NCBI GenBank assembly: GCA_937951625.1
Contig: CALFBP010000037.1
Location: forward strand, 1-64,000
Direction: 5' to 3'
From: an uncultured Thermoguttaceae bacterium
Lineage (GTDB): Bacteria > Planctomycetota > Planctomycetia > Pirellulales > Thermoguttaceae
DNA: 64,000 nt
A program made the position numbers and the translations under genes. Under the pieces are notes generated by a model. That model saw only the letters and a list, made by a program, of their open reading frames with translations. It was not told the origin of the DNA and did no database searches. Positions within the stretch are counted from its first letter, which is position 1. Each line of letters opens with the position of its first letter. This document shows, piece after piece, positions 6,549 to 26,181 of the stretch.

Positions 6549-7836
6549 GTTGTCCTTTCTCTCCTGAAGGTTTGCAAAAGTGGTGAATTACAGTCGAGGT
6601 TACGCTTTCATGTCGCTACGCAGGTTTCAGGCCATTTGCTGCGAATGAGATCTTTGAGGAATATGCCCATTTCCCGTGGTGTCTTTGGCGTGTCCGTTAA
6701 ATTTGCGCGGTGGGAACCTCAGCCGACCATCGTTGCCAGTGTTGGATCGTCTTGGCCGCCTCTTCGACGATCGCCGGGCAGAGGGCGACTCGAAACCACG
6801 AACTCCGCTCCAACGCCGCTGCTACCAGCGTACGCACTTGGCACACCGTGAACTCTGAATTCTTCTCCCCTTTTTTCGAGCCTGGGCCGAGAACAGGTAG
6901 CTATCAAACTGCTGTTAAGGTGCCGTTTCAATGCCAGCCAGAGGCGTTCATAGCATCGTCCCCTGGATGACGCGGCATCTCCGTTGACTCTCCATTTTCA
7001 CCAATTCACGCAGCAACAATCTTGCGCCGTGACACGCTCGTCCCGGTGAGTAACAGGGCAACCATCTTCGTTGTCCCATCTGCATTCGGTCTCCACGGTA
7101 ACCGCTAAGAAAGTAGACGTGTCGAACCTGGCTGACAGCCCGAGGCCAGCCCCCTAGCTCCCATCGCGTAACGCTAGATGTTCAGGTGGGAGTATTTCTC
7201 CGAATCTGTTTTGGGTCCACCGGCAGAGACCTCGCCGAATGGACTAGGATAGCTTAGATCGCGGCCGCGAAACGAGGTCTGGAACTCCTCGCAGTTGCCC
7301 TGGCAGCCGTCCACATTCCGCCAGCAAAGGTCTGGCTGCGGCGCCCCGCTCCGCAACGCCCGGTTCTTGGTCTGCGTCAGGTCGCTGGCATTGGGTTGTT
7401 ACAGAGTCAGCAAACACACTCTTCGCCACGGTCCCGCATTCGGATCAATCCCTGAAGTAGTCATTCTATCAACCGATGGAGTATTATACACCCGCCAAAC
7501 AGCTTATATTTAACATTAGTCATACTTATATTTTTTGGCGTGTCGTAGATGCTGTGCATGAAGCCATCGCTTGAAATTCGTCTGGCCAGATCGGCAGGAG
7601 GGTGGATCGATTTGGTTACTCTTGCTCCAATGGTGAGCTTTGGTACGCCGCCTGTCCACGCCGTACCCCAAAAAGGGAATCAGACAACTTGGGGAGGCCG
7701 CTGCTATACCGATCAGGCGGACAATGTTGACTGGCGAACGACGGGCTTTTCGAGTAGGCTCATAAATTCGTGGGCCTCGGCTTCGAGGCAAATGGTTTTT
7801 GCCAACCTTGGTTTTGTCTTAGCTCCCCCCCGGCAC
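6549..7836. other. 1.3 kb region without a convincing gene
   Basis: Several short frames exist, none with a recognisable domain. Around 7460-7545 the sequence becomes markedly AT-rich (TATTATACACC, CTTATATTTAAC, TTATATTTTTT), unlike its surroundings, and may hold the promoter of the EF-G gene. The EF-G frame is open back to 7549, but the 96 extra residues are not EF-G-like. Other than this I see nothing. Confidence 0.5.
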
Positions 7837-9912
7837 ATGTCATCTGATTTTGCATTAGAAAAATTGCGCAACATCGGGATTATCGCCCACATTGACGCGG
7901 GGAAGACCACCGTCACCGAACGAATGCTCTATTACTCGGGATTTACACACCGCGTAGGGGGGGTGGACGAGGGAACCACAGTCACGGATTACGATCCAGA
8001 GGAGCAGGAGCGGGGCATTACCATCAACGCGGCCTGTGTGACGTTTCCTTGGAAGGGGGTGACCATCAACCTGATCGACACGCCAGGCCACGTGGACTTC
8101 ACGGCAGAAGTCGAACGGAGCCTTAGGGTTCTCGATGGGGGGGTGGTGGTATTTAGTGCCCGGGAGGGGGTCGAGGCCCAGAGCGAAACCGTCTGGCGCC
8201 AGGCCGACAAGTACCACGTGTCGCGGTTGGCGTTCATCAACAAGATGGACCGCGAAGGGGCCGATTTTCACGGCACGGTGCAAGAGATCGAGAAGCGGTT
8301 GGAATGCTCTCCCGTGGTGGTCGCTCTTCCGGTTGGCGCAGGGCCCGCCCATACGGCCGACCCATTTCGGGGCGTGATCGACGTGATCGAGATGAAGATG
8401 CTCACCTTCGACCCCAAGGACGAGGGGGCAACGATCCTTACGCACGAGATCCCCGAGGAGTTGCGAGAGGAGGCGGAGATGTGGCGCAGCGCCCTGCTCG
8501 ATCGGCTCTCGCATCATAGCGACGAGTTGATCGAAAAGATGCTCGCCGAAGAACCTATTCCGCGCGAGCTGATCCACCGCGTGCTCCGCGAGGCCACGAT
8601 CCACAACATGGTGGTGCCGGTGCTTTGCGGATCAGCGCTTCGCGGCATTGGCGTGCAACCAATCCTCGACGCGGTCAGCCTATGGCTACCCAGTCCTGCC
8701 GACATGCCGCCGATCGAAGGCGTCGATCCCAAGAAGAACACCAAGATCCGACGCAAACCAGACCCCGAAGAGCCTTTTTGCGGCTTGCTGTTCAAAGTCC
8801 AGGCAGAGCGGCACGGAGACTTGGATTACGTGCGTGTGTACTCGGGCCGACTCAAGGCAGGCAGCCGGGTTTACAACCCTGGTAAAGATAAGAAGGAAAA
8901 CGTCCCGCAGTTGTGGCGCATCCAGGCCGATCGGCGCGAACAGGTCGACGAGGTTGCCGCCGGCGACATTGTGGGCATCATCGGTTTGAAGCATTCGGTG
9001 ACTGGCGACACGCTTTGCCACCCTCAGCATCCGATCCTGCTGGAATCGATCGTCTTTCCCGAGACCGTCATCTCCATGGCCATCGAGCCGGAGTCGTCGT
9101 TGGAGCGCAAAAAGCTGGCCGAAGTCTTGGAAATGATGAAGCGCCAGGATCCGACGTTCCGCGCCAAAGAGAGCGAGGAAACCGGTCAAACCCTGATCAG
9201 CGGCATGGGCGAGTTGCATCTCGAAGTGATCACCCATCGCCTGTTGCGCGATTTCAAGTTGAACGTCCGTGTTCACAAGCCTCGGGTGAGCTATCGGGAA
9301 ACCATCGAGAAGGCGGTGGAAGTCACGGGGCACTGCCACCGCACGATGGCCGGTCAACAGCTTTTCGCCGAATTGACGATTCGCATGGAGCCGTTCGCTC
9401 AGGGCGTTCGTCCCGTGACCGTGGTGGCTGCGTGCGGCGACGCTTTGCCAGCCCCCTACCTGAACGCGGCCATCCAGGTGCTGACGGAACAGGGCGAAGG
9501 CGGCGGGCTGTTGGGCTTCCCGTTGATGCGCGTCAAGATCAGCGTGCTGGGCGGCAAGGTTCACGAAACGGAATCCAACGAATTGGCCTTCCGGTTGGCG
9601 GCGGCCGACGCCTTCAACCGGGGCCTGCGCGAGGCCGGCATCGTGCTCCTCGAACCCATTATGCGGCTCGAAGTCACCGCTCCCGAAGAGTACTTAGGCG
9701 ATATCGTCAGCGATCTCCAGCAGCGCCGCGCCGAAATTACGCGGACCCAGACCCGCGGGCGGAACACGGTAATCGAGGCCCGCGCGCCGCTGGCCGAATT
9801 GTTCGGCTACTCGAACGCCATGCGGGGACTGAGCCAAGGTCGGGCGAGCTGCACCATGGAGCCCAGCAGCTACGGCCCCGCCCCGCCAGAAGTGCTCCGC
9901 TCGTTCCTCTAA
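7837..9912 (+). CDS. fusA: Elongation factor G-like translational GTPase (variant domain IV)
   Basis: 691 residues with full EF-G length and order: G domain, domain II, then domains III-V. GTPase motifs are AHIDAGKTT (residues 17-25), RGITIN (59-64), DTPGH (81-85), NKMD (135-138) and a CGSAL G5 motif. Domain III has SGMGELHLEV. In domain IV the usual G-G-R-G-Q-Y-G stretch is absent and reads HRTMAGQQLFAEL (about residues 496-508). Planctomycetes carry several EF-G paralogues, so this may not be the main translocase; the symbol is by family only. The ATG at 7837 starts four residues before the first conserved segment. No clear ribosome site precedes it. Confidence 0.88.
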   Translation: MSSDFALEKLRNIGIIAHIDAGKTTVTERMLYYSGFTHRVGGVDEGTTVTDYDPEEQERGITINAACVTFPWKGVTINLIDTPGHVDFTAEVERSLRVLDGGVVVFSAREGVEAQSETVWRQADKYHVSRLAFINKMDREGADFHGTVQEIEKRLECSPVVVALPVGAGPAHTADPFRGVIDVIEMKMLTFDPKDEGATILTHEIPEELREEAEMWRSALLDRLSHHSDELIEKMLAEEPIPRELIHRVLREATIHNMVVPVLCGSALRGIGVQPILDAVSLWLPSPADMPPIEGVDPKKNTKIRRKPDPEEPFCGLLFKVQAERHGDLDYVRVYSGRLKAGSRVYNPGKDKKENVPQLWRIQADRREQVDEVAAGDIVGIIGLKHSVTGDTLCHPQHPILLESIVFPETVISMAIEPESSLERKKLAEVLEMMKRQDPTFRAKESEETGQTLISGMGELHLEVITHRLLRDFKLNVRVHKPRVSYRETIEKAVEVTGHCHRTMAGQQLFAELTIRMEPFAQGVRPVTVVAACGDALPAPYLNAAIQVLTEQGEGGGLLGFPLMRVKISVLGGKVHETESNELAFRLAAADAFNRGLREAGIVLLEPIMRLEVTAPEEYLGDIVSDLQQRRAEITRTQTRGRNTVIEARAPLAELFGYSNAMRGLSQGRASCTMEPSSYGPAPPEVLRSFL

Positions 9913-19843: not shown

Positions 19844-20455
19844 TCAAAAGGCCTGACGCCCCAACAGGGCGTCGGTCAAGATTTCACGATTCGCCAATTC
19901 CAAGACGCTGCCCGGCGTGATCCCCCGCGCCAGCCGAGTCACCCGAATCGGCAGCTCCGAAAGCAAGTTGGAAATATACAACGCCGTGCCGTCGCCTTCC
20001 GTGGTCGGGTTCGTCGCCATGATCACCTCCTCAAAGGCTCCCGTCCGGACGCGCCGCACGAGGGCGTCGATCGTGAGTTGTTCGGGACCGATCCCATCCA
20101 AGGGCGCGATGCGCCCGAGCAACACGTGATACAGTCCCTGATAAATGCCCGTCTGTTCCAGCGCGATCAGGTCGCGCGGCTGTTCCACGACGCACAATTG
20201 GTCTTGCCTTCGCTTCGGGTCACGACAGATCGAGCAGGTTTCTTCTTCTGATAAATTGTAGCAGACGGCGCAGTAACGGACATTTTCCTTGACCCGCCGG
20301 ATGGCCTCGGCCAAGGCGAGGGCCTCGGAGGCGTGGACCCTCAAGATGTGATACGCCAGGCGCTCCGCCGACTTTTTTCCGATGCCCGGCAGCTTGTTGA
20401 ACTCATTGATCAGATTGGCGACCGAGTCGGTAAGTTCCGGCACAGCGCACCCCAC
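19844..20455 (-). CDS. recR: Recombination mediator protein RecR
   Basis: 203 residues, the normal length. It has a helix-hairpin-helix (LPGIGKKSAERLAYH), a four-cysteine zinc finger (Cys62, Cys65, Cys74, Cys77) and a Toprim domain starting at CVVEQPRDLIALE. With RecF/RecO it loads RecA on gapped DNA. It follows ybaB by about 36 bases in the order dnaX-ybaB-recR that is conserved in many bacteria. Confidence 0.97.
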   Translation of the reverse strand: MGCAVPELTDSVANLINEFNKLPGIGKKSAERLAYHILRVHASEALALAEAIRRVKENVRYCAVCYNLSEEETCSICRDPKRRQDQLCVVEQPRDLIALEQTGIYQGLYHVLLGRIAPLDGIGPEQLTIDALVRRVRTGAFEEVIMATNPTTEGDGTALYISNLLSELPIRVTRLARGITPGSVLELANREILTDALLGRQAF

Positions 20456-20491
20456 GACTGCGTGACCTTGTGAATCAAACCGACTTTGCGT

Positions 20492-20896
20492 TCACGTGTT
20501 GGCGTCAGGTTCTTCCGCTGGCGGGGAACTGCTGGGTCCCGCGTTTCCCACGCCTAAGAACTTGGCCAAGGCCTGTTCAATGCCCGGCAAGGGAATGCCA
20601 CCGGTGATGGAACGCATGGTTTCCGCGTGGAGCTCCTTGGCTTTAGCCACCGCTTGATTGACGGCCGCCGCGACCAAGTCTTCGAGCAGCTCTTGGTCGG
20701 GCTGGGTGAGGAGTTTGGGGTCGATGCGGCAGCGGAGGACCTCGACCAGGCCGTTGACTTCGATTTCTACCAAGCCGCCGCCCGCCGAACCGGTCGCACG
20801 CCGGTTGCGCAGTTCCTCCGTGAGCCCTTGCACCCGTCCGCTAATCGCCTGAGCGTGCTTCAAGAGCGATCCTAAACCGGCGAATTCCTTGAACAC
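20492..20896 (-). CDS. YbaB/EbfC family nucleoid-associated protein
   Basis: 134 residues of the YbaB/EbfC DNA-binding family: an N-terminal helix (GSLLKHAQAISGRVQGLTEEL), a beta core (GLVEIEVNGLVEVLRCRIDP) and C-terminal helices with NQAVAKAKELHAE. The start is a GTG at 20896, which has an AAGGAG ribosome site 7 bases upstream and gives the expected MFKEFAGLGSL beginning. The frame continues upstream, but that part is not family-like. The Pro/Ser/Glu-rich tail is not conserved. It sits between dnaX and recR. Confidence 0.93.
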   Translation of the reverse strand: MFKEFAGLGSLLKHAQAISGRVQGLTEELRNRRATGSAGGGLVEIEVNGLVEVLRCRIDPKLLTQPDQELLEDLVAAAVNQAVAKAKELHAETMRSITGGIPLPGIEQALAKFLGVGNAGPSSSPPAEEPDANT

Positions 20897-20981
20897 GACA
20901 AACTCCTTGTGCTCGGCCCTATTCGGCGACCAACGCAAGTGATCCGTTTGCCCGCTTTCATCCTGTTCCCGCGTTCCCGCT

Positions 20982-22742
20982 TCAACCTCGGCTTGGCACG
21001 TCGATACGTTCTGGAAAGGCCTCGAACAACTCCATGGCCCGGCGCACCAAGGGATGCTGAGCAACCTCGGCCCGGCGCTGGATAGGCGATTTGCCTCGTG
21101 CGGGGGAGGTTTCTTCCCGCTCCGGCCGATCATCCCCAGCGGTGACAAACTCCAAACGGATTCGCTCGCCAGTCAGTTGCGACAACACCCGCTCGAAATG
21201 CGCCTTTTGTTCAGGGGTGTCGCAGATCGACTTCGACAAAGTATACTCTTTCGCGAAAGCGATTGCCAAGTGATTTGGCGCGCGGATTGCAGCATCCACA
21301 AAATGCCTGGCGTGCTCCCCAACCAAACCGGGTGTCCGTTCCACGACCTGAAGCCAGACGTTCCTGGCATTCTCGGCCGTCAGGGGGGTTCGGACCCCAG
21401 GGAACTCAATCTCAGCGGCTGCTCCCTGTTCCGAGGAGACGCCACACGCCAATGGGGTGATCAGCTCAGGTCCTTTTTTTTTCCGGCCTTCTGTGGCAAG
21501 CGGGGATGGCGGGCTGGTCGCCGTGGAACGATTTTCAACGGCCGGGGGTGGTCCGTGTTGAAGTTGGGACACCACCTCGCCCAATTCCACAACGTCGCCC
21601 AACGTGGCAATCCGCACCAAAGCCAGTTCGGCGAGGATTCGCCCCTGCGTGCTGTAACGCAGCCGGGCCAGCGTCTGATCCAAGATCTGCATCACGGCTA
21701 GGATGTTTTCGACGCCGAGGCGGCTGGCAAGCTGGGCCACCTCTGGCCATTGGTCCGGCGTGGCGTGCAGCAATAGCTCGGCAGAACAGCCCGCGGCCGA
21801 AACCATCATATCGCGATAAAACCCGAGGAGCTGTTCCACCAAAAGGCCCGCATCAACGCCCTCCTGAATAGCCACGTCGAACTCGCGTAGGACCTCGGCT
21901 GGATTGCCCTCGGCCAGGAACCGCACAAGCCGAAGGAGGCGGTCGCTCCCGGCGATCCCGAGCATCGCGTTCACGTCCGCAACGGTAATCTTCCCGGGGG
22001 CGAAGGCGAGGAGTTGTTCCAGGAGCGATTGGCTGTCGCGCATCGAGCCGGCGGCCCGCCGGGCCAATAGTTGCAAGGCCTCGGGTTCTGCGGAGACCTT
22101 TTCGGCCTCGACAATCTGCGCCAAGCGCTTAACGATGGCTTCAGTTTGAATCCCGGCAAAGTCGAATCGTTGGCATCGAGAGAGGATGGTGACCGGGATT
22201 TTGGTCGGCTCGGTGGTGCAGAAGATGAACTTAACGTGTTCAGGGGGTTCTTCCAGCGTTTTCAGCAAGGCGTTGAAGGCCTCGCGCGTCAGCATGTGGA
22301 CTTCGTCGATGATGTAGATTTTGAACCGCTCGCGGCTGGGACGGATGTTGACGTTCTGCCGGAGTTGCCGTATCTCGTCGATCCCGCGGTTGCTGGCCCC
22401 GTCGATTTCCAATACGTCCACATCCTCGCCGGCACTGATGGCCTCGCAGACATCGCAGCGATTGCAGGGGTTGGGAGTAGGCCCGGTCGGGCAGTTCAAC
22501 GCTTTGGCTAGAATCCTGGCGGCCGACGTCTTGCCCACCCCGCGGGCGCCCGTGAACAGATAAGCGTGGCCTACACGCCGCGTGCTGATCGCATTGGAAA
22601 GGGCCTTCGCCACATGCTCCTGGCCCACGAGTTCATCGAACGTTTGCGGGCGATAACGTCGGGCAACGACGACGTAGTCGTGGGGGCGCATGGACGGCTG
22701 TTCGCGGGGGACGTCGGTGTTGGTCGAAAGCTGGGACGACAT
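20982..22742 (-). CDS. dnaX: DNA polymerase III subunit gamma/tau
   Basis: 586 residues. The clamp-loader AAA+ domain has Walker A GARGVGKT (65-72), a zinc module with Cys84, Cys93, Cys96 and Cys99, Walker B IIDEVHML, and the sensor segment VTILSRCQRFDF. The C-terminal 200 residues form the tau-like extension with a variable Pro/Ser-rich linker. The frame runs on to 22802, but that would enter the SRP RNA gene, so I place the start at the ATG at 22742; the ATG at 22691 (MRPHDYVVV) is also possible. No slippery A-tract for programmed frameshifting was noticed. Confidence 0.95.
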   Translation of the reverse strand: MSSQLSTNTDVPREQPSMRPHDYVVVARRYRPQTFDELVGQEHVAKALSNAISTRRVGHAYLFTGARGVGKTSAARILAKALNCPTGPTPNPCNRCDVCEAISAGEDVDVLEIDGASNRGIDEIRQLRQNVNIRPSRERFKIYIIDEVHMLTREAFNALLKTLEEPPEHVKFIFCTTEPTKIPVTILSRCQRFDFAGIQTEAIVKRLAQIVEAEKVSAEPEALQLLARRAAGSMRDSQSLLEQLLAFAPGKITVADVNAMLGIAGSDRLLRLVRFLAEGNPAEVLREFDVAIQEGVDAGLLVEQLLGFYRDMMVSAAGCSAELLLHATPDQWPEVAQLASRLGVENILAVMQILDQTLARLRYSTQGRILAELALVRIATLGDVVELGEVVSQLQHGPPPAVENRSTATSPPSPLATEGRKKKGPELITPLACGVSSEQGAAAEIEFPGVRTPLTAENARNVWLQVVERTPGLVGEHARHFVDAAIRAPNHLAIAFAKEYTLSKSICDTPEQKAHFERVLSQLTGERIRLEFVTAGDDRPEREETSPARGKSPIQRRAEVAQHPLVRRAMELFEAFPERIDVPSRG

Positions 22743-22785
22743 CGTTTGGCCCCCGGGCCCGAAGAGCTGCTCCAAAGCGGCGTTG

Positions 22786-22881
22786 GATGAGAGGCCCACC
22801 ACACATGGGGGTTACTGCTTATGGCTGCTGACTTTCGCCCCTGACCAGGTTCACAGCTCCCCATTGCGGGGGCCCCTCATC
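22786..22881 (-). ncRNA. ffs: Bacterial signal recognition particle RNA (4.5S type)
   Basis: Read on the minus strand, a 96-base RNA closes on itself: the 5' end GATGAGGGGCC pairs with the 3' end GGCCTCTCATC, with one wobble. The apical domain reads GGTCAGGGGC-GAAA-GTCAGCAGCC. It has the same length as the E. coli 4.5S core and keeps the CAGG / AGCAG symmetric loop bound by Ffh, with a GAAA tetraloop. It lies 44 bases before dnaX, the same neighbourhood as scr-dnaX in Bacillus. Confidence 0.95.
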
Positions 22882-23026: not shown

Positions 23027-23974
23027 ATGTTTCTCAATCAACGCGCTTGGGCGCTTTGCGAGGGTGGAATCGGCGACGCGGAGCGTCTTCGGATTGCGGT
23101 ACACTGCAATCCGGACGGCAGCCGGGTGGTGGATTGCGGGGTTGCCGTCCGCGGTGGCCTGGAGGCAGGACGCCTGATGGCCTCGGTCTGTATGGCGGGC
23201 TTGGGCGAGGTCGCCATTCTGCCTCCGCAAACCCCTTGGGCCACTCCGCTTGTCGCCGTGCGGACCGACCATCCCACGGCCGCTTGCATGGCCTCGCAGT
23301 ATGCCGGTTGGCGCATTTCGGGCGAGGGATACTTCGCGATGGGTTCCGGTCCGATGCGGGCCTTGGCCCGACGGGAACCGCTGTTCCAGAAGATCGACGC
23401 ATGCACGCAGCCGGAAACCGTCGCGGTAGGCGTGTTGGAGGCCTCGCGGCTACCGCCCCCGGCAATTTGCCAAAGTCTGGCTCAGCAGTGCGGGGTCCCG
23501 CCATCGGCCCTGCTTTTGCTCGTTGCACCCACGGCCAGTCAGGCGGGCACGGTTCAAGTCGTCGCCCGATCCGCCGAAACGGCGATGCACAAACTGGCCG
23601 AACTCGAGTTCGACCTGGCCCGCGTGGAAAGCGTCCTCGGGACGGCTCCGCTGCCGCCCGTGGCCCAAAACGACTTCGAGGCCATGGGCCGCACCAACGA
23701 CGCGGTGCTCTACGGCGCGGAGGTCACCCTTTGGGTCCGCGGTGACCAGGCGAGCTTGGAGCGGCTTGGGCCGCAAATCCCCTCGAGCGCTTCGAAAGAC
23801 CACGGCACTTCCTTCGTCGAACTATTCCGTCGTTGCGGGGGGGATTTCTACCGCATGGATCCCATGCTCTTCGGACCGGCCGTGGTGACGATCCATAATC
23901 TGGATACGGGCCAGACGCTCCGCTTCGGGAAGCTCGTCCCGGAATTGGCGTGTCCCCATAAGACTGCGGGATAG
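23027..23974 (+). CDS. mch: Methenyltetrahydromethanopterin cyclohydrolase
   Basis: 315 residues, the normal length for Mch. It interconverts methenyl-H4MPT and formyl-H4MPT in the methanopterin-linked C1 pathway. Family segments include NPDGSRVVDCGVAVRGGLEAGRL, CMAGLGEV, ASQYAGW, GEGYFAMGSGPMRALA and the C-terminal FYRMDPMLFGPA. The ATG at 23027 has TAGGAG 10 bases upstream. In planctomycetes this pathway is thought to handle formaldehyde. The next gene is a RimK-like ligase, as in the C1 clusters of methylotrophs. No other H4MPT gene is inside the window. Confidence 0.95.
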   Translation: MFLNQRAWALCEGGIGDAERLRIAVHCNPDGSRVVDCGVAVRGGLEAGRLMASVCMAGLGEVAILPPQTPWATPLVAVRTDHPTAACMASQYAGWRISGEGYFAMGSGPMRALARREPLFQKIDACTQPETVAVGVLEASRLPPPAICQSLAQQCGVPPSALLLLVAPTASQAGTVQVVARSAETAMHKLAELEFDLARVESVLGTAPLPPVAQNDFEAMGRTNDAVLYGAEVTLWVRGDQASLERLGPQIPSSASKDHGTSFVELFRRCGGDFYRMDPMLFGPAVVTIHNLDTGQTLRFGKLVPELACPHKTAG

Positions 23975-24050
23975 GCCTTCAGGGGCAGCGGCGACGCAGC
24001 CTTTGCTCCCCATGGCGACCAGGTCACAACGATCTGAGGGCTTTTTTCCC

Positions 24051-24989
24051 ATGCGACTGGTAGTTCTTGCCTCGCCCGAAAGTTGGTACTTGGCTGACCT
24101 GCGTCGCGCCGCGGGCCAGCGGCACGAGATTCTTCGCGCCTCTTTCAGCCAATTGGTGTCGCGGCTGGATGAACAGGGTTGTACGATCGCTGCGGGCGAC
24201 GTCGACCTGGCGGCGGTCGACGGCGTGCTCGTTCGGACCATGCCGCCAGGCTCGCTGGAGCAAGTCGTTTTCCGCATGGACGCGCTGGCGCGACTGGAGG
24301 CCATCGGTGTTCCGGTGGTCAATCCGCCAAAAGGCCTCGAGGCTGCGGTCGATAAATACCTCGCGTTGGCCAGGCTCCAGGCGGCCGGGCTGCCGACGCC
24401 ACGCACCATCGTTTGCCAAACCGTCGACGACGCCATGGCGGCGTTCGAACGCCTGGGGGGCGACGTGGTGATCAAGCCGCTCTTCGGCTCCGAGGGACGC
24501 GGCCTTGTTAGGGTCACCGAGGACGCCTTGGCGCTGCGAGTGTTCAAGGCCTTGGTGCAAGTGCAATCGGTACTCTACCTTCAGGAGTTCCTCCCCCACC
24601 CAGGCTTCGATTTGCGTTTGTTTCTGGTAGGCGAGCGGGCGCTAGCCATGAAACGAACGAATCTCAACGATTGGCGCACGAATGTCGCCCAGGGTGCAAT
24701 CACCGAGCCATTTGAAGCTACGGACGAGATGATCGGTTTGGCGCGATCCGCGGCTCTGGCCTTGGGGACGCCGTTGGCGGGCGTCGATTTGCTCCCGGCC
24801 CGCGATGGACGCCTCTACGTCCTCGAGGTGAATGCCGTTCCAGGCTGGAAGGCCTTGGCCGCCACGCTCCAAGTGGACGTGGCGGCGTTGGTCCTGGAAC
24901 ACCTACAGGAGGTTTGCCGCCGCGGAGACGGAGGGCTGTCCGGGTACATGCCAGGCAACTCTCCAGCAGGGGGGCGTTCAGCTAGTTAA
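24051..24989 (+). CDS. RimK-like ATP-grasp ligase (probable methanopterin pathway)
   Basis: 312 residues of the RimK / alpha-L-glutamate ligase ATP-grasp family. Recognisable segments are NPPKGLEAAVDKYLALARLQAAGLP (pre-grasp), VVIKPLFGSEGRGL (ATP lid), YLQEFL, and the metal-binding end GVDLLPA...YVLEVNAVPGWKAL. ATP-grasp genes next to mch are known in methylotroph C1 clusters and needed for tetrahydromethanopterin synthesis, so I infer it adds an amino acid, probably glutamate, to the cofactor. The ATG at 24051 is 76 bases after mch, which suggests one operon. Substrate is not proven. Confidence 0.85.
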   Translation: MRLVVLASPESWYLADLRRAAGQRHEILRASFSQLVSRLDEQGCTIAAGDVDLAAVDGVLVRTMPPGSLEQVVFRMDALARLEAIGVPVVNPPKGLEAAVDKYLALARLQAAGLPTPRTIVCQTVDDAMAAFERLGGDVVIKPLFGSEGRGLVRVTEDALALRVFKALVQVQSVLYLQEFLPHPGFDLRLFLVGERALAMKRTNLNDWRTNVAQGAITEPFEATDEMIGLARSAALALGTPLAGVDLLPARDGRLYVLEVNAVPGWKALAATLQVDVAALVLEHLQEVCRRGDGGLSGYMPGNSPAGGRSAS

Positions 24990-25104: not shown

Positions 25105-26181
25105 ATGAAGACCTTGCGACGGTGGAGCGCGGCGGTCGTTTTAGCGTTCGGTTTGGGAGTCGTCAAGGCGACGTGCGCGTTGGGTCAGGCGGGGCCCGCA
25201 CCGCCTCAGGAGATTTGGACCCCTGAGGCGGGGATCGTCGACGCCGCAGGCGACGTGCTTCGGGAAATCATGAGCATCCCCATGCGCTCCATCCCGGCCA
25301 CCTTATTGGCCGAGGCCCGAGGCCTGGTCATCGTGCCGCGGATGCTGAAAGGGGCCTTCTTGGTGGGCGTGCGGCACGGCCGGGGCCTGGTGCTCCGTCG
25401 CGACGAGGCGGGAGAGTGGCGTGGGCCGGTTTTCATCACCCTCACGGGCGGGAGTTTCGGCTGGCAAGCGGGCATCCAGGAAACGGACGTGATCCTAGTG
25501 TTCGTCACCCGGCAAAGTGTTGAAGGATTGCTGCGCGGCAAGTTCACCATCGGGGCCGACGCAGCGGCCACGGCGGGGCCGGTGGGACGCGAGGCCAGCT
25601 TGGCCACCGACCACACGCTCCGGGCGGAAATCTACTCGTATTCATTGAGCCGGGGATTGTTTGCCGGGGTGGCCCTCGATGGTTCGGTCCTTCAGCCCGA
25701 TGCCTACGCCACGCACCGCTATTATGCCGCATCGGGCACGACGGCGGCGGCCGTACAGTCGGGCGAAGCGAAGCAGCTCCCGCCGTCGGCTGTTCGCCTA
25801 TTGGACGAACTCAAGCGCTGGACCCCCGCCCGACTCGCCGATGTCCCCGCCTACGCCGGCCCGATGCCCGGCAACGTTGAGCAGCAGCGGCAAGCCATCC
25901 AACGGCGCCTAGCCGATGCCGCTCGACGGCTTGAATCCCTCCTGGACGACTCCTGGAAAAAATACCTCGCCCTCCCGAGCGAGGTCAGCGATGCCGAGCG
26001 TCGCCCGAACGCGGAAGCCCTCCGCGACACGCTCGTCCGGTTCCACACGGTGGCGACGACACCGTCCTATCGGGCCCTGGTTCAGCGTCCGGAGTTTCAA
26101 GAGACTTATGCCCTGTTGCAGCGCCTAGCTGCCTTGGAAAACAGTTCAGCGCGATTGGCCTTGCCCCCACCACCAAAGTAA
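25105..26181 (+). CDS. Exported SYLF (Ysc84-like) domain protein
   Basis: 358 residues with a signal peptide. The SYLF / DUF500 domain spans about residues 45-230: the opening helix (VLREIMSIPMRSIPATLLAEARGLVIVP), GAFLVGVRHGRGLVL, the GGSFGWQAGIQETDVILVF segment and YSYSLSRGLFAGVALDGSVL, which is the family's signature. SYLF domains bind phosphoinositides in eukaryotes; in bacteria the exported forms have no settled role. The rest is helical and not recognised. The ATG follows CGGAGGA. Confidence 0.88.
   Translation: MKTLRRWSAAVVLAFGLGVVKATCALGQAGPAPPQEIWTPEAGIVDAAGDVLREIMSIPMRSIPATLLAEARGLVIVPRMLKGAFLVGVRHGRGLVLRRDEAGEWRGPVFITLTGGSFGWQAGIQETDVILVFVTRQSVEGLLRGKFTIGADAAATAGPVGREASLATDHTLRAEIYSYSLSRGLFAGVALDGSVLQPDAYATHRYYAASGTTAAAVQSGEAKQLPPSAVRLLDELKRWTPARLADVPAYAGPMPGNVEQQRQAIQRRLADAARRLESLLDDSWKKYLALPSEVSDAERRPNAEALRDTLVRFHTVATTPSYRALVQRPEFQETYALLQRLAALENSSARLALPPPPK

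Follow-up and report, generated by a model that had tools for sequence, protein, structure and literature searches.

A mch-linked ATP-grasp gene pair in a Thermoguttaceae bacterium and the probable role of its ligase in methylofuran tailoring

Introduction

Methenyltetrahydromethanopterin cyclohydrolase (Mch) is encoded directly upstream of an ATP-grasp ligase at positions 23027-24989 of the window, the 64,000-nucleotide stretch of DNA from an uncultured Thermoguttaceae bacterium analyzed here. The pair raises the question of which coenzyme the ligase tailors. An earlier note on this DNA placed both genes in the tetrahydromethanopterin (H4MPT) C1 pathway and proposed that the methanopterin may carry a different side chain, determined by the ligase. 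A second coenzyme of the same pathway is methylofuran (MYFR). In Methylorubrum extorquens, Hemmann et al. 2021 showed that its glutamate tail is extended by Orf5, an ATP-grasp protein with 33% identity to MptN, which they named MyfB (PMC8141765). The same authors argue against an action of MyfB on H4MPT: the form made by M. extorquens is dephospho-H4MPT, in which the alpha-hydroxyglutarate moiety that receives glutamate from MptN is missing (PMC8141765).

The H4MPT/methanofuran C1 pathway of planctomycetes is already published (Chistoserdova et al. 2004, as cited in PMC5020050) and is also treated in PMC3505017. Going by that citation, the genes described here belong to the same pathway in the same phylum. 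They differ in that the 2021 MyfB assignment is now applied to the lineage, and no earlier application of this kind was found in the literature surveyed.

Results

The mch gene occupies positions 23027-23974 of the forward strand, with an open reading frame of 315 amino acids that starts at ATG 23027 and whose stop codon ends at 23974. In a domain profile search, its product scores 378 bits against PF02289 (cut-off 25) and 366 bits over residues 3-307 against the TIGR03120 equivalog (cut-off 228.8). By this full-length equivalog score the product is Mch, and cyclohydrolase activity is predicted. It is the only copy in the genome. An alignment of eight sequences indicates that the invariant Arg and Glu are retained (R180 and E183 in the M. 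kandleri fragment), which we take to correspond to the catalytic R183 and E186 of the Archaeoglobus enzyme. In the Mch tree, the proteins of the same phylum group together in a single clade (99/96), and its neighbor is proteobacterial Mch (93/99).

The ligase gene lies at 24051-24989 on the same strand and encodes 312 amino acids in an open frame. Its ATG at 24051 is the start that matches the alignment with relatives, while an alternative TTG in the same frame, at 24003, would lengthen the protein by 16 residues. The genes are 76 bp apart (23975-24050), compared with 30-139 bp in 18 related genomes, and co-transcription is predicted. The open frames and profile scores thus confirm that mch is followed by an ATP-grasp ligase, as had been read from the sequence. 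Upstream of mch, divergent genes on the reverse strand (19844-22802) encode dnaX-like (DNA polymerase III gamma/tau), YbaB-like, and RecR-like proteins, as judged by eye from their translations. Downstream of the ligase, a SYLF/Ysc84-domain protein (PF04366) is encoded at about 25105-26181 on the forward strand and looks unrelated to C1 genes.

The ligase is a RimK-type ATP-grasp protein that scores 80 bits against PF08443 and 172.6 bits against TIGR00768, above the cut-off of 143.4. Its best NCBIfam match is the MptN model NF040720 at 225.8 bits, under the equivalog cut-off of 350 bits, which some true archaeal relatives likewise fail to reach. It is the sole RimK-type ligase in the genome, with three further matches at E 4.7e-4 or weaker. 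The protein is 32-36% identical to proteobacterial MyfB, 28-34% to MptN, 25-27% to RimK, and 24% to GshB. Its AlphaFold2 model has a pLDDT of 92.8, and among solved structures its fold comes closest to RimK, LysX, and ArgX (TM 0.77-0.81). Because the general residues K102, K142, D246, E259, and N261 are intact and the model matches these folds, the ligase is probably an active enzyme.

The remainder of the pathway was sought, one gene family at a time, in the source genome (4.59 Mb, 105 contigs, 97.9% complete), as the earlier note had proposed. The gene fae is located on contig C49, directly followed on its 3' side by a Mpt_N methylene-H4MPT dehydrogenase of the mtdB/C type (31-36% identical to proteobacterial MtdB); close by, the opposite strand encodes a MyfA-like ATP-grasp_3 ligase. 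Four further contigs hold fhcA (C39, 722 bits), fhcB (C26, 435 bits; locus L212, 1501-2751), fhcC (C100, 228 bits), and fhcD (C35), and mfnB is found on C25. One genome therefore contains fae, mtd, mch, and fhcABCD on scattered contigs; adjacency of fhcA, fhcB, or fhcC to fhcD or mch is ruled out by their separate contigs. Beside mfnB on C25, the stretch 7568-9201 of locus L207 encodes a restriction endonuclease of the BglII type (PF09195) along with an N6/N4 DNA methylase.

RFAP synthase was matched only by its N-terminus. A TIGR00144 search of the genome returned no match, but an alignment of bacterial-type RFAP synthases recovered an N-terminal fragment at C22:1-153 (locus L211), beside a DUF447 homolog, and the idea that the enzyme is missing was rejected. 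Its apparent absence is explained by the contig end that cuts the gene and by the failure of TIGR00144 to detect the bacterial type. The H4MPT/methylofuran formaldehyde pathway is near-complete in this genome, and the membership of the pair in an H4MPT C1 pathway, as first proposed, is upheld by fae, the mtdB/C-type gene, fhcA-D, and mfnB elsewhere in the genome.

FhcB carries TTSGSHGP where solved FwdB proteins have TASVCHGP, with Ser in place of the Cys that ligates Mo/W, and is otherwise Fwd-like in sequence. The cysteine ligand of the metal in FwdB has been described (PMC11656701), and lack of the Mo/W cofactor is a mark of the scaffold-type FhcB in the hydrolase complex (PMC10100899). By this motif, FhcB should be of the hydrolase type (Fhc) rather than a Fwd dehydrogenase, and because the metal-ligand Cys is lacking, the complex should release formate and not CO2. 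The Chloroflexi FwdB/FhcB proteins (L103, L114) retain the Cys; since these genomes also carry the ligase, the MyfB-like ligase is not tied to a hydrolase-type complex.

Among 294 genomes sampled from the phylum, 28 contain mch. All 28 also encode the ligase, with at least 212 bits against the window protein, versus none of the 12 mch-less genomes tested, a non-random convenience set in which no match exceeds 105 bits. The ligase gene lies directly 3' of mch on the same strand, at gaps of 30-139 bp, in 18 of the 27 other mch genomes, and elsewhere in the genome in the remainder. This recurrent order, together with co-occurrence with mch, rules out that the two are chance neighbors. The sample includes one further genome of this family (G167, single-contig, 99% complete); unlike the source genome, it lacks both mch and the ligase, so the C1 pathway is patchy within the family.

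Gene order in relatives sets the pair in a larger island. The window has only mch-myfB, while the order mch-myfB-orf7 is kept in deep-branching genomes of the phylum (L215-L221). The island reads fhcD-fhcC-mch-myfB-orf7 in L215 and L216 and comprises mtdC, fae, myfA, mch, myfB, orf7, and DUF6513 in L219; mfnB, orf9, or orf17 is part of it in L215, L218, L219, and L221. Five plasmid clusters from Proteobacteria have the ligase gene immediately 3' of mch, with orf7 (triphosphoribosyl-dephospho-CoA synthase-like) and then fae next in line, which bears out the parallel to methylotroph C1 clusters drawn in the earlier note. These plasmid ligases are annotated as RimK-type in four clusters and as hypothetical in the fifth (L035). 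An OrfY/MyfA-type gene sits 5' of mch in all five, and a HisA-like orf17 comes after fae in three (L033, L034, L037). In M. extorquens PA1, orf5 is Mext_1832 and orf17 is Mext_1835 (PMC8141765). The plasmid ligases are taken as MyfB because their gene order fits the spacing of these locus numbers.

The pair also extends beyond these two phyla. One Chloroflexi locus (L114) has the order mtdC-myfA-fhcB-fhcA-fhcD-fhcC-mch-myfB, and two Nitrososphaeria-type archaea (L104, L077) have fhcC-mch-myfB, so the mch-ligase pair spans both domains. A MyfB-like ligase adjoins mch, often after fhcC, in three Chloroflexi loci (L101, L103, L114) and in both archaeal ones (L077, L104).

The ligase tree comprises 78 ATP-grasp sequences, in which MyfB is represented by the proteobacterial plasmid ligases, assigned by synteny, and not by the M. 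extorquens protein. The 28 proteins of the phylum form a single clade (100/99), next to which lie Chloroflexi (93/84), a TACK/Asgard archaeal clade (98/94), and proteobacterial MyfB (90/80). In the best tree, all four make up one group (90/80). Outside this group lie the main, Methanosarcinales clade of MptN (100/98) and the RimK clade (99/94), which includes other ATP-grasps from related genomes. The AU test does not reject an alternative in which MptN lies inside the group and proteobacterial MyfB outside (p = 0.189). The trees called for earlier thus place Mch in a same-phylum clade and the ligase outside RimK, with MyfB in the best tree.

Two codons mark residues that distinguish these groups. 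Glu97 (24339-24341, forward strand) is common to MyfB and occurs in no sampled MptN, RimK, or LysX. Trp266 (24846-24848, forward strand) follows the conserved E259-x-N261 motif and is Gly in MptN, Leu in RimK, and Phe in LysX; the region after this motif presumably contributes to substrate choice in LysX and ArgX. Both residues are common to all 28 same-phylum proteins, 3 from Chloroflexi, and 5 proteobacterial MyfB proteins, and four of five archaeal clade proteins have W266. The signature E97, D101, and W266, picked post hoc with the alignment already in view, is shared by the ligase and MyfB and is found in none of 10 main-clade MptN sequences, which have no Glu at 97, Asn at 101, and Gly at 266.

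Discussion

The pair is probably a two-gene remnant of an H4MPT/methylofuran formaldehyde-oxidation island, with the ligase a MyfB ortholog that extends the polyglutamate tail of methylofuran. The ligase is assigned to methylofuran because tree, synteny, and specificity residues put MyfB nearest among its characterized relatives. The MyfB reading draws further on the co-occurrence with mch (28/28 versus 0/12) and on the MyfA-like ligase, MfnB, FhcA-D, and hydrolase-type FhcB of the genome. Like MyfB of M. extorquens (PMC8141765), the ligase is a RimK-type ATP-grasp protein with E97 and W266, encoded after mch and, in relatives, before orf7, in a genome that also has FhcABCD, MfnB, and a MyfA-like ligase. 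It differs in its 32-36% identity to proteobacterial MyfB and in its separate deep clade nearer Chloroflexi. The earlier proposal that the ligase decides the methanopterin side chain is accordingly disfavored; tree, synteny, and residues point to the methylofuran tail instead.

That proposal survives as an unlikely alternative, in which an MptN-type ligase adds glutamate to methanopterin itself and gives the phylum a different methanopterin side chain. MptN, the methanogen H4MPT:alpha-L-glutamate ligase, belongs to the same ATP-grasp subfamily and supplies the best curated HMM match; its identity to the ligase is only slightly under that of MyfB, the neighboring mch encodes an H4MPT enzyme, and the MptN-side placement is not rejected by the AU test. 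Yet the score stays below the MptN cut-off, the ligase lacks the Asn at 101 and Gly at 266 of MptN, and its own E97, D101, and W266 are foreign to main-clade MptN. No sampled Methanosarcinales MptN has mch within 1.5 kb, whereas the ligase is linked to it. The H4MPT known from bacteria, in phyla other than this one, is moreover dephospho-H4MPT, without the carboxylate that would accept glutamate (PMC8141765).

Rather less probable is that the ligase performs another methylofuran step, adding the first or a branch glutamate while a different enzyme elongates the chain. The formation of tail branches is left unexplained in PMC8141765 and a MyfA-like ligase is also encoded, but the ligase is the only RimK-type one in the genome and matches MyfB in position and residues. 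Very improbable is an enzyme of the RimK, LysX/ArgX, or glutathione-synthetase type beside mch by chance. The general RimK domain (PF08443), the general catalytic residues, and the fold nearest to RimK and LysX fit such an enzyme, but RimK, LysX, and ArgX fall in separate clades and carry other residues at 97 and 266, and identity to RimK and GshB is low. The adjacency to mch also recurs in 18 of 27 related genomes and three other lineages, and co-occurrence with mch is complete among the genomes tested. A RimK/GshB origin is ruled out by tree, identity, and HMM scores. Both a grouping of the ligase with RimK or GshB and a genome devoid of other H4MPT genes had been named in advance as grounds for abandoning the C1 interpretation; both were looked for and neither was obtained.

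Most likely, Fae, the Mtd enzyme, and Mch convert formaldehyde to formyl-H4MPT, with Mch, which interconverts methenyl-H4MPT and formyl-H4MPT, running here toward formyl-H4MPT. MyfB would use ATP to activate a carboxylate and then join glutamates one by one to the methylofuran tail. Anchored by this tail, MYFR would stay attached to FhcABCD, the formyltransferase/hydrolase complex, and FhcD would move the formyl group from formyl-H4MPT onto the bound methylofuran. By analogy with M. extorquens, the tethered methylofuran may swing between two sites, carrying the formyl group to the hydrolase site, where FhcA would release formate. We infer methylofuran as the substrate, together with the length of the tail, its linkage type, and the direction of flux.

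These assignments correct the likely coenzyme tailored by the ligase from methanopterin to methylofuran and add a further bacterial phylum to the range of MyfB, whose biochemistry was worked out in M. extorquens. The archaeal enzyme that adds further glutamates to methanofuran is stated to be unidentified (PMC8141765), and the FhcC-Mch-MyfB order in Chloroflexi and TACK archaea offers candidate genes for this ligase. While the ligase type itself is already known, no description of the cross-domain gene order was found in the literature surveyed. A tentative proposal, which may well prove wrong, is that the MyfB-like clade found beside mch in this phylum, in Chloroflexi, and in Nitrososphaeria-type archaea represents the missing class of enzyme for lengthening the glutamate chains of methanofuran-type coenzymes in both domains. 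If so, the clade would predate the point at which Fwd lost its dehydrogenase function, because Chloroflexi pair it with a Cys-bearing FwdB. An FhcB that is Fwd-like apart from its change from Cys to Ser suggests that the transition from dehydrogenase to hydrolase can be traced within the lineage.
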